This document shows, one piece after another, positions 31,278 to 38,749 of a DNA stretch of 41,606 bases; position 1 is the stretch's first letter, and each line of letters starts with the position of its first letter. The stretch is taken from assembly GCA_030743815.1 (NCBI GenBank), contig JASLRT010000046.1, positions 1 to 41,606 on the forward strand, read 5' to 3'. This stretch comes from Candidatus Neomarinimicrobiota bacterium. Lineage in GTDB: Bacteria; Fidelibacterota; Marinisomatia; Marinisomatales; S15-B10. A program made the position numbers and the translations under genes. The notes under the pieces are model-generated. The model saw nothing but the letters and a program-made list of their open reading frames with translations, was not told the DNA's origin and did not search any database.

Positions 31278-32552
31278 TCAAGTCATAAAATCGATAGCTG
31301 CCGTCACACCCTCACATAGAGCGTCGATTTCTACGGTTGTATTATAAAGATAAAAACTTGCTCTGGCCGTAGCAGGCACATCAAGTTTCTGCATAATTGG
31401 CTGAGCACAGTGATGCCCTGCGCGGATAGCGATGCCTCTCTCATCAAGAACCTGTGCTAGATCGTGGGGGTGGACGTTTTCAACGTTGAAGCTCACCAAT
31501 CCGCCCCGTTCAGCGCCGGGGCCGTAAATAGTGACTTCAGGAATGGCCGACAGTGCCTCAAGAGCGTATCGGGTCAGCGTCCTCTCGTGTCTTTCGATAC
31601 TGTCAATGCCGATCGTTTCGAGATAATCGACGGCAGCACCCAGTCCGATAACCTGTGCAATATTAGGTGTCCCCGCCTCGAACTTCCATGGTGGCTTATT
31701 CCAGGTTGACTCTTCCATTGTCACTGAGTTAATCATTTCTCCGCCACCCAGGAAAGGTTCCATCCCGGTCAGAAGTTCCTGGCGACCACAAAGTACGCCC
31801 ACGCCTGTCGGTCCAAGCATTTTGTGGCCTGAAAAAGCGAGAAAATCGCATCCAAGCGTCTGGATGTCCATAGGAGAGTGAGGGACACTCTGGGCAGCGT
31901 CTACCAGTACGAGAGCACCTACGTCTTTGGCCATCTGATAGATTTCCCGGACCGGATTGATTGTGCCGAACACGTTGGACTGATGGATGAACGAGACCAG
32001 TCTGGTCTTGTCAGTGAAGTATTCATCGGGATTGTTCAGCGCCAGGGTGCCGTCGCTTCTGATAGGGATGTATCTCAGTGTAGCTCCGGTATCTCTGGCC
32101 GCCAACTGCCACGGGATTATGTTGCTGTGATGTTCCATCTCAGTGATGAGGATTTCGTCTCCCGGGCCCAGATTGTGCCTTCCCCAGCTGTAAGCGACAA
32201 GGTTGATGGCCTCAGTTGTCCCTCTGGTGAAGATCACTGAACTGGTTTCCCACGCGTTGATGAATCGAGCCACTTTTTCGCGGGCTGATTCGTATTCGAG
32301 AGTAGCCTGTTCCCCGATGGCATAGATCGCCCGATGGATATTGGCGTTGTATTGCTGGTAATATTCATTAATCTTATTGATGACCACCCGCGGTTTTTGT
32401 GAAGTGGCGGCGTTGTCTAGGTAAGTGAGTGGCTTGTCTCGCACTTGCCGCGATAACTGAGGAAAGTCCTTGCGTATGGTGGCAACATCCAGAGATGTCG
32501 TGTCTTCTACGCTCTGGGAAATCGTTCCCGTTTTTCCCGTCGTCAGGTTCAC
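31278..32552 (-). CDS. sufS: Cysteine desulfurase SufS
   Basis: 424-residue type II cysteine desulfurase. PLP is held by K244 (FSGHKMLGPTG) and HHSNIIPW; the persulfide cysteine is C382 in RAGHHCAQP. It releases sulfur from cysteine for the SufBCD scaffold; enzymes of this type can also act on selenocysteine, relevant to the selD gene nearby. It has an unusual N-terminal extension of about 20 residues. Its start overlaps the sufT stop by 4 bases. Confidence 0.96.
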   Translation of the reverse strand: MNLTTGKTGTISQSVEDTTSLDVATIRKDFPQLSRQVRDKPLTYLDNAATSQKPRVVINKINEYYQQYNANIHRAIYAIGEQATLEYESAREKVARFINAWETSSVIFTRGTTEAINLVAYSWGRHNLGPGDEILITEMEHHSNIIPWQLAARDTGATLRYIPIRSDGTLALNNPDEYFTDKTRLVSFIHQSNVFGTINPVREIYQMAKDVGALVLVDAAQSVPHSPMDIQTLGCDFLAFSGHKMLGPTGVGVLCGRQELLTGMEPFLGGGEMINSVTMEESTWNKPPWKFEAGTPNIAQVIGLGAAVDYLETIGIDSIERHERTLTRYALEALSAIPEVTIYGPGAERGGLVSFNVENVHPHDLAQVLDERGIAIRAGHHCAQPIMQKLDVPATARASFYLYNTTVEIDALCEGVTAAIDFMT

Positions 32553-35644: not shown

Positions 35645-37096
35645 TTAGCCGACACTTCCCTCGAGACTGACTTCCATCAGTTTCTGGGCTTCAACGGCAA
35701 ATTCCATCGGCAACTCACGGAAGACTTCCTTGCAGAAGCCGTTCACGATCATGGAGACCGCATCTTCCATGGTCACACCGCGCTGATTGCAGTAGAATAT
35801 CTGGTCCTCTCCGATGGTTGATGTGGACGCCTCATGTTCCATCTGAGCGGTGGGATTTCTGACATCGATGTAGGGGAACGTGTGGGCACCGCATTGATCG
35901 CCTACCAGGAGAGAGTCACATTGAGAATAGTTTCGCGCATTGTCAGCTCCCTTCATGACAGTCACCGCGCCACGGTACGTATTCTGTCCTTTCCCCGCCG
36001 AAATCCCTTTGGAGACGATGGTGCTGCGTGTGTTCTTACCCATATGAATCATCTTCGTCCCCGTGTCCGCCTGCTGATAGTTATTGGTCAGGGCGACGGA
36101 GTAGAATTCGCCTTTCGTGTTATCACCTTTGAGTATTACGCTGGGATACTTCCACGTTACCGCTGACCCCGTCTCTACCTGAGTCCATGATATCTTTGCG
36201 TTCTTCTCCAGGCACGTTCCCCGCTTGGTAACAAAGTTGTAGATGCCCCCTTTGCCTGTCTTGGGATCTCCGGGGTACCAGTTTTGCACTGTGGAATACT
36301 TAATAGTGGCATCCTTGTGAGCTACCAGTTCCACCACAGCTGCGTGGAGTTGATTTTCATCGCGCATGGGCGCGGTACACCCTTCCAGGTAGCTGACATA
36401 ACTGCCTTCATCCGCAATGATAAGCGTCCTTTCAAACTGCCCCGTGTTTGATGCGTTGATGCGAAAATAGGTGGACAGTTCCATGGGACAGCGGACACCT
36501 TGCGGCACATAAACAAAGCTGCCGTCGCTGAAGACGGCTGAATTGAGGGAAGCAAAGAAATTGTCAGTGTAAGGGACAACTGAACCGAGATAGTGTTTTA
36601 CAAGATCAGGATGATTCATGACCGCTTCGGAAAAGGGGCAGAAAATGATGCCCAGTTTTTTCAGGTCTTCCTTGAAGGTTGTTGCGACAGAGACACTATC
36701 AAACACCGCGTCCACGGCTACGCCGGCGAGACGCTTTCGTTCTTCCAGGGGGATACCCAGTTTTTCGTATGTTCGCAACAGTTCCGGATCGACTTCATCA
36801 AGGCTTGCAGGTCCGTCGCCTTCCTGTTTGGGCGCTGCATAGTAGCTGATAGCCTGATAGTCCGGATTTGTATAGTTTACCTTTGCCCATTGCGGTTCAG
36901 TCATTTTGGTCCACTGGCGATAGGCTTTCAAACGCCATTGCAGCATCCATTCAGGTTCGCCCTTCTTCGACGATATGAGGCGGATGACTTCCTCATTCAG
37001 TCCTGGAGTAATCTGGTCCTGATCAATATCGGTAACAAAACCGTATTTATACTCTTGAGAGAGCCGTGTTTTGATTGTAAGGTTTTCTTGATTCAT
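35645..37096 (-). CDS. sufB: SufB, Fe-S assembly complex subunit
   Basis: 483 residues from ATG 37096; a TTG one codon earlier is in frame but less likely. Family stretches include [62 protein letters not shown] and [11 protein letters not shown]. It assembles nascent [4Fe-4S] clusters. It is the first true suf gene and follows the zinc-ribbon gene (37181-37480) after an 84-base gap that has GGGA/TCCC complementarity but no clear terminator, so both may share the promoter at 37581-37610. Confidence 0.97.
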
Positions 37097-37180
37097 CAAT
37101 AGTGGGACAATAATCCCGTTCCATCAGATAGTGTTAAGGTAAAATACATTGTTGCTTCTCAATCAGACTTGGGGAGTCGG

Positions 37181-37480
37181 TTAGCAGACGCCGCTGGCGA
37201 CCTTCATTGCGTTATGGGAATTATCACCGCAGTCTGGGCAAATCTCTGCAAGACATCCTATGGCCGGGAAGTCTTCAAGCTCGCGCCATACCCAGCCTCC
37301 GTGACTGTGTGATCGTTTCCTGATAGTATTGCTCAGCCAGTCTTCCCATACTATGTGACATTCGGGGCAAACCTTAGGCATTCTCGCTACCGTCTTGTGA
37401 GAACGTGTCTTTGATACCGTGTTTGACTTCCATTCGAATCGATGCCTGTCAGAAATATATTTTGAATTCTTGTTGCTCAT
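37181..37480 (-). CDS. Small zinc-ribbon protein upstream of the suf cluster, unknown
   Basis: 99 residues. A basic N-terminal arm (about 1-34, rich in Lys, Arg, Ser and His) precedes two zinc knuckles, CPECH (37-41) and CPDCG (80-84), separated by a 38-residue insert containing RKRSHSHGGWVWRE. Additional Cys residues lie at 75 and at the C-terminus. I do not recognise the family. A GGGAGA ribosome site precedes the ATG, and a strong promoter lies about 100 bases upstream. Its position between selD and sufB suggests a link to sulfur, selenium or Fe-S metabolism, which is inference. Confidence 0.75.
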   Translation of the reverse strand: MSNKNSKYISDRHRFEWKSNTVSKTRSHKTVARMPKVCPECHIVWEDWLSNTIRKRSHSHGGWVWRELEDFPAIGCLAEICPDCGDNSHNAMKVASGVC

Positions 37481-37649: not shown

Positions 37650-38699
37650 TCACACAACAGTGATCCGTGTCTCTTGCGGCGATGTGACCTGTCCGACAAT
37701 AGTCGCTTTTATGTCGGAGATTGCGTTAAAGTTTTTCACAAACTGATGGGTACGGTCTCGAGGCATGGCAATAAGAAGGCCGCCGGAAGTCTGGGCATCT
37801 GCCGCCATGGTCTTCTGGTTACTGGAAATACGGCTGTTAAAACTGACATACGAAGAGACATATGCGAGATTTCTCTTTGTTCCGCCGGGGATGATTTCTT
37901 TCTCTGCTAACTTATTCACACCGTTCATGAATGGGAGTTTTTCAAATTTGATCTCGGCTGAAACGTCGCTGGCCTGGCACATTTCCAGCAAATGCCCTAG
38001 CAATCCGAAACCAGTCACATCGGTAGCCGCATGGGCGCCGAGTTTGAGCATCAATTCTGATGCATCGGCGTTGAGTGTGGTCATCACCTTTGTCGCTTCG
38101 GCGATCATAGAATCATCGGCGATACCACGTTTGATCCCGGTGGCGACGATCCCCGTCCCAAGCGGTTTTGTCAGGACAAGAAGATCGCCGACAGAGGCTG
38201 TCGAATTCTTCACTAATCGATCCACCTCAGCCCGCCCTGTCACCACCAGACCGTACTTAGGCTCCTTGTCATCAATGCTGTGTCCGCCCACGATGCTTAT
38301 TCCAGCCTCCTTCGCCTTGTCGTTCCCCCCCTTCAAGATTTCCGACAATATCTCCATGGGGAGGTCTTTTCTGGGGAAAGCGACAATGTTCAGAGCGAAG
38401 AGCGGAATAGCACCCATAGCGTAGATATCCGAGATGGCGTTAGCGGCGGCGATCTGGCCGAAGTCGTAGGGATCATCAACGATGGGTGTGAAGAAATCTA
38501 CAGTCTGGACGATGGCCTCTTTGCCGTCGAGGCGTACCACTGCAGCATCGTCGACTCCGTGAAAATCGACAACTACACGCTTATCATCAGACACCGGCAG
38601 CTGACTCAGAACCTGAGCCAGGTCTTCTGGACCGAGCTTACAGGCTCAACCGGAGCCGTGGCTGAGTTGCGTCAGGCGTTTGGCTTCTTCACTGGCCAT
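37650..38699 (-). CDS. selD: Selenide, water dikinase (selenophosphate synthetase) with in-frame TGA selenocysteine
   Basis: 349 residues from ATG 38699, read through TGA at 38646-38648 (codon 18). The start is certain, because an in-frame TAA lies four codons upstream. The N-terminus reads KRLTQLSHGSG-U-ACK, aligning with the SelD active-site motif where E. coli has C17 and K20; here U18 and K21. Without read-through an ORF would start at 38594 and lose this essential segment. Downstream: FHGVDDAAVVRLD, QTVDFFTPIVDDPYDFGQIAAANAISD, GGHSIDDKEP, DVTGFGLLGHL and QTSGGLLIAMP, all SelD landmarks. The enzyme makes selenophosphate from selenide and ATP for selenocysteine or selenouridine. A candidate promoter is at 38738-38765. 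The next gene on the strand is the zinc-ribbon protein. Confidence 0.93.
38614..38648 (-). promoter_or_regulatory. Bacterial SECIS-like hairpin at the selD TGA
   Basis: Starting at the UGA itself, UGAGCC pairs with GGCUCA (38643-38648 and 38614-38619), and an inner GGUC/GACC stem (38630-38633 and 38621-38624) closes a CAGAA loop about 16 bases after the UGA. An alternative stem AGCUCGGUC/GACCUGGCU (38616-38638) has eight pairs with one mismatch and the same loop. Bacterial SECIS elements sit in this position. The loop G is third rather than first or second, so SelB recognition is plausible but not proven. Confidence 0.65.
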
Positions 38700-38749
38700 G
38701 GGTGAAATTTAGGGCGGGAGTGAAGAGACGGGAAGGGAAAATAGTTTAA

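Follow-up and report, generated by a model that had tools for sequence, protein, structure and literature searches.

The 41,606-nucleotide stretch analysed here (the window; contig JASLRT010000046.1 of assembly GCA_030743815.1, Candidatus Neomarinimicrobiota bacterium) carries on its minus strand a selD gene that is interrupted by an in-frame TGA codon. Sequence comparisons indicate that this gene almost certainly encodes a selenocysteine (Sec)-containing selenophosphate synthetase, with the UGA at 38648-38646 being read as Sec. The gene is defined by the following features:

37650 to 38699, minus strand: selD, selenide water dikinase (selenophosphate synthetase), 349 amino acids, predicted Sec at residue 18
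38646 to 38648, minus strand: in-frame TGA, predicted Sec codon at the catalytic position, equivalent to Cys17 of E. coli SelD
38709 to 38711, minus strand: in-frame TAA, which restricts the start to the ATG at 38699

The original prediction had described a frame that leads from this ATG through the TGA into a full SelD, with its start fixed by an upstream TAA, and both elements were recovered. Translation starts at ATG 38699-38697 and the stop at 38711-38709 leaves no room for an earlier start. The codons around the UGA are GGC TCC GGT TGA GCC TGT AAG, and the frame then remains open to the terminator TGA at 37652-37650. With TGA translated as Sec, the N-terminus reads MASEEAKRLTQLSHGSGUACKLGPEDL... 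The read-through product matches TIGR00476 with 409 bits (cut-off 125; profile positions 1-309, from residue 8) and NF002098 with 373 bits (cut-off 299), and E. coli SelD (3u0o) is a full-length homologue with 267 bits. Its N-terminal loop aligns with those of E. coli SelD and Aquifex SelD (2yye), which have Cys opposite the UGA; the catalytic loop GSG-U-ACK corresponds to GAG-C-GCK in the E. coli protein and contains the xCK motif. As the protein is recognizable as SelD from residue 8 and its N-terminus aligns with both characterized enzymes, the in-frame TGA is not a chance feature. A standard open reading frame (ORF) call comprises only 37650-38594, with a GTG start and 314 amino acids, which is the truncation that had been anticipated for automatic callers. 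Thus, the gene is indeed hidden from gene callers, but the term does not apply to the family, as Sec-containing SelD has long been known. Other UGA-interrupted genes were not recognised in the window when lengths alone were compared, with no homology search, and extensions obtained with TGA as Sec were short or overlapping.

Conservation of the codon was analysed with 110 fetched loci from several phyla, some of which represent one genome fetched twice, yielding 77 distinct TGA-containing sequences, and with a phylum sample of 199 genomes. The closest named relatives belong to Candidatus Marinimicrobia/Neomarinimicrobiota. The codon aligned with the selD UGA is TGA in 95, TGT in eight, and TGC in seven of the 110 loci and never anything else, in agreement with the expectation that SelD proteins have either Cys or Sec at exactly this position. 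The frame 3' of the UGA is conserved at 41-81% identity and has no further stop. SelD is present in 142 of the 199 phylum genomes, and exactly one in-frame TGA was found in 119. The stop-free SelD proteins of the phylum are mostly frames of 736-748 amino acids in other families and are candidate NADH dehydrogenase-like/SelD fusions.

Downstream of the UGA, two adjacent hairpins could serve as the bacterial Sec insertion sequence (bSECIS). In columns counted from the U of the UGA, they occupy positions 30-46 (HP2) and 16-28 (HP1):

38603 to 38619, minus strand: bSECIS hairpin HP2, GGCUCAG-GUU-CUGAGUC, 7 bp, loop beginning with GU, 33 nt after the UGA
38621 to 38633, minus strand: upstream hairpin HP1, GGUC-CAGAA-GACC, conserved; accessory here, but possibly the main SECIS of certain other lineages

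A published bSECIS model demands a G followed by a U at the opening of the loop, at least 4 bp, and an energy below -7.5 (PMC13188914). HP2 satisfies this model with 7 bp, a GUU loop, a spacing of 33 nt, and -11.5 kcal/mol (columns 28-48). Synonymous recodings gave -2.3 kcal/mol, and only 0.75% of 2000 recodings were as low as the native sequence. Across the 77 distinct Sec-SelDs, 86.8% of the cells in both hairpins are paired, compared to 21-44% in slid controls. Two-sided changes amount to 70 against a shuffled mean of 23.8, and none of 500 shuffles reached the covariation score; the column pair 33-43, for example, occurs as CG, UA, GC, UG, and GU. HP2 is canonical in 61 of the 77 Sec-SelDs and in only one of 15 Cys-SelDs.

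Several points weigh against the Sec reading or its structural part. All the data are of the sequence level, and the shuffle controls leave relatedness in place; the slid controls also preserve it, yet score far below the hairpins. RNAalifold gave no consensus structure for the 77-sequence alignment, the single-sequence fold of the window favours an alternative stem over HP2, and the 51-nt region taken as a whole exceeds its synonymous recodings only modestly in stability (6% as low). The minimum-energy stem, in which 38647-38641 pair with 38615-38609, was considered as a candidate and rejected, as it showed little covariation above shuffles. An Rfam search of the hairpin region returned no relevant RNA.

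The alternative that survives best leaves Sec insertion intact and assigns SelB binding to HP1 (38633-38621) or to a combined structure instead of HP2 (38619-38603). HP1 is paired in 91% of its cells, and its loop qualifies in 13 sequences in which HP2 is non-canonical, for example in Thermoleophilia and relatives (loci L088, L092, L094-L096), which have a Sec-SelD in which HP2 is lost and HP1 has a GUC loop. For the gene in the window this assignment is nevertheless rather unlikely, as it is HP2 that conforms to the bSECIS model and holds most of the covariation. The occurrence of a qualifying HP1 loop where HP2 is non-canonical suggests that, across lineages, the functional bSECIS may have moved along the gene from one of the two adjacent hairpins to the other.

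A Sec codon requires a decoding apparatus, and the original prediction had demanded selA, selB, and selC elsewhere in the genome. All three are present in the window genome, which is 96.9% complete: selB (351 bits) directly adjoins selA (522.6 bits) on contig C14, and a single tRNA-Sec with the anticodon UCA is encoded on contig C116 (67.8 bits, gathering threshold 47), in agreement with ARAGORN. Among the 119 genomes with Sec-SelD, 109 have selA, 93 have tRNA-Sec, and 116 have at least one of both. Detection of tRNA-Sec rises with completeness, from 8/18 genomes below 80% to 33/42 at 80-90% and 52/59 above 90%, so that the misses look like a result of incompleteness and strict filters. In 16 streamlined genomes of one family (f2; G006, G028, G032, and 13 more; 0.7-1.0 Mb), SelD, selA, and tRNA-Sec are jointly missing. 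This indicates a joint loss of all parts of the trait, which would be expected if it serves Sec.

The predicted search target of further UGA-interrupted redox genes was also found. Family searches of the window genome that read through stops revealed a single TGA at the Cys/Sec position in at least five more redox genes (U = TGA; contigs of the window genome, G000):

C107:2460-2660 and C73:8105-8236 (L129, L130): two AhpD-like proteins (CFYU, CHYU)
C97:25695-26075 (L133): Bcp-type peroxiredoxin (PGUATE)
C73:5523-5741 (L139): SelW/Rdx protein (CCAUNY)
C109:4875-7256 (L142:576-2957): TlpA-like thioredoxin (SWUPSC), 793 amino acids, predicted to be secreted

Of 30 homologues fetched for the TlpA-like gene, 22 retain the UGA, and a hairpin with a GGC loop and compensatory stems follows the UGA after 17 nt in 21 of the 22 UGA homologues and in none of the eight Cys homologues. 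This conservation and the hairpin provide independent evidence that the organism reads UGA as Sec. No formate dehydrogenase selenoprotein was detected in the window genome; its single molybdopterin protein contains no internal stop. Taken together, alignment, machinery, further UGA genes, and a covarying bSECIS support the earlier proposal that the organism decodes UGA as Sec.

These data also bear on the possibility that the UGA is a true stop, leaving a truncated SelD that starts at GTG 38594, or that another amino acid such as Trp (genetic code 4) is inserted. The 314-amino-acid ORF does exist, but a truncated product would lack both the catalytic residue 18 and Lys21, which is conserved, and the sequence immediately flanking the TGA on either side is conserved at the protein level (SHGSG-U-ACK). 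Furthermore, UGA terminates genes normally in the window genome, selD included, which excludes a general codon reassignment, and the dedicated tRNA-Sec, SelA, and SelB speak against both variants, which are therefore very improbable. Least probable of all is an error in sequencing or assembly, or a premature stop that makes selD a pseudogene. Single-base errors are possible in a contig from a 123-contig draft assembly, but the same TGA occurs in 119 independently assembled phylum genomes and in homologues from other phyla with Cys codons as the only alternative, which for practical purposes refutes this reading; the stop-free, conserved frame 3' of the TGA also speaks against it.

With the UGA read as Sec, a plausible course of events can be drawn. 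SelB carrying Sec-tRNA-Sec (UCA) would bind the hairpin that lies some 33 nt beyond the UGA at 38648-38646, and Sec would be inserted at residue 18, which is situated beside Lys21 in the flexible catalytic loop at the N-terminus. The resulting SelD would form selenophosphate from ATP and selenide, which SelA would use for the conversion of Ser-tRNA-Sec into Sec-tRNA-Sec; the chemistry of SelD, SelA, and SelB is well established. SelD, which prepares selenium for selenoproteins, would then be a selenoprotein itself and would need the selenophosphate that it makes; a positive loop coupling SelD output to selenium supply might result. Selenium could be delivered to SelD by a neighbouring SufS, encoded in the suf region downstream of selD:

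37181 to 37480: ORF of 99 amino acids between selD and sufB, no Pfam match
35645 to 37099, minus strand: sufB, downstream neighbour of selD
31278 to 32552, minus strand: sufS, group II cysteine desulfurase (TIGR01979, 604 bits)

On the same strand, selD is followed by the 99-amino-acid ORF, sufB, sufC, sufD, and later sufS. A few close relatives also have the small ORF next to selD. The linkage of selD to sufB recurs in 44 fetched loci, each with a TGA-containing selD; in these, sufB is located on the same strand, 1.1-2.7 kb 3' of the UGA. As desulfurases of the SufS type are able to free selenium from Sec, it is plausible that the neighbouring SufS supplies selenium to SelD.

The TlpA-like protein combines the SWUPSC thioredoxin motif with FG-GAP repeats, a hydrophobic, signal peptide-like N-terminus, and a type A sorting domain of the type IX secretion system (T9SS; TIGR04183, 36 bits, cut-off 23), and the T9SS translocon SprA is encoded in the window genome. 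No description of a T9SS selenoprotein or of a Neomarinimicrobiota selenoproteome was found in a literature search, in which absence is no proof of absence. In one homologue (L154, genome G136), the active site contains two TGA codons in a row (ATW-UU-PC), which might form a Sec-Sec motif.

The phylum sample also touches on SAR406, an older name of the Neomarinimicrobiota lineage. In a survey from 2016, three SAR406 single cells were listed with SelD but without a selenium trait, as "orphan SelD" (PMC5029168). In the phylum sample, SelD is nearly always accompanied by selA or tRNA-Sec, so that, judged from this sample, incomplete genomes are the likelier reason. More broadly, Sec-SelD might be the hub of a phylum-wide selenium system with SUF-linked selenium supply (selD-sufB synteny and SufS as donor), T9SS-dependent export of the TlpA-like selenoprotein to the surface of the cell or into the medium, and orphan SelD explained by incomplete genomes; this integrated view is tentative and, as a whole, has somewhat less than an even chance of being right. 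If the Sec reading holds, UGA serves as a Sec codon in a large, uncultured phylum of marine bacteria, whose SelD and other redox enzymes are cut short by standard annotation. Its selD genes form a good natural series in which to study how a bSECIS can shift between two neighbouring hairpins. Added to this are a proposed explanation for the SAR406 orphan SelD, the selD-suf synteny, and the predicted secreted thioredoxin-like selenoprotein.

Sec-containing SelD/SPS2 proteins are known, for example, from Aquifex aeolicus and from Haemophilus influenzae SelD. The protein described here resembles bacterial SelD-Sec/SPS2 in its TIGR00476 assignment, the catalytic position of Sec, the full Sec machinery, and a bSECIS just 3' of the UGA. 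It differs only in its lineage, the downstream suf neighbourhood, and the tandem hairpins with a far bSECIS loop, which at 33 nt from the UGA is close to the upper limit of the published range of 16-37 nt. E. coli SelD (Cys17; 3u0o) is a full-length homologue with an aligned N-terminal catalytic loop that has Cys where Sec is predicted here. NADH dehydrogenase-like/SelD fusions carry Cys, as N-terminal extensions and fusions always do with one NifS exception (PMC4561486); they share the SelD domain with the protein from the window, which is unfused and has a predicted Sec. Thus, Sec-SelD is an already well-known selenoprotein family, whereas the complete Sec system of the Neomarinimicrobiota is much less described.
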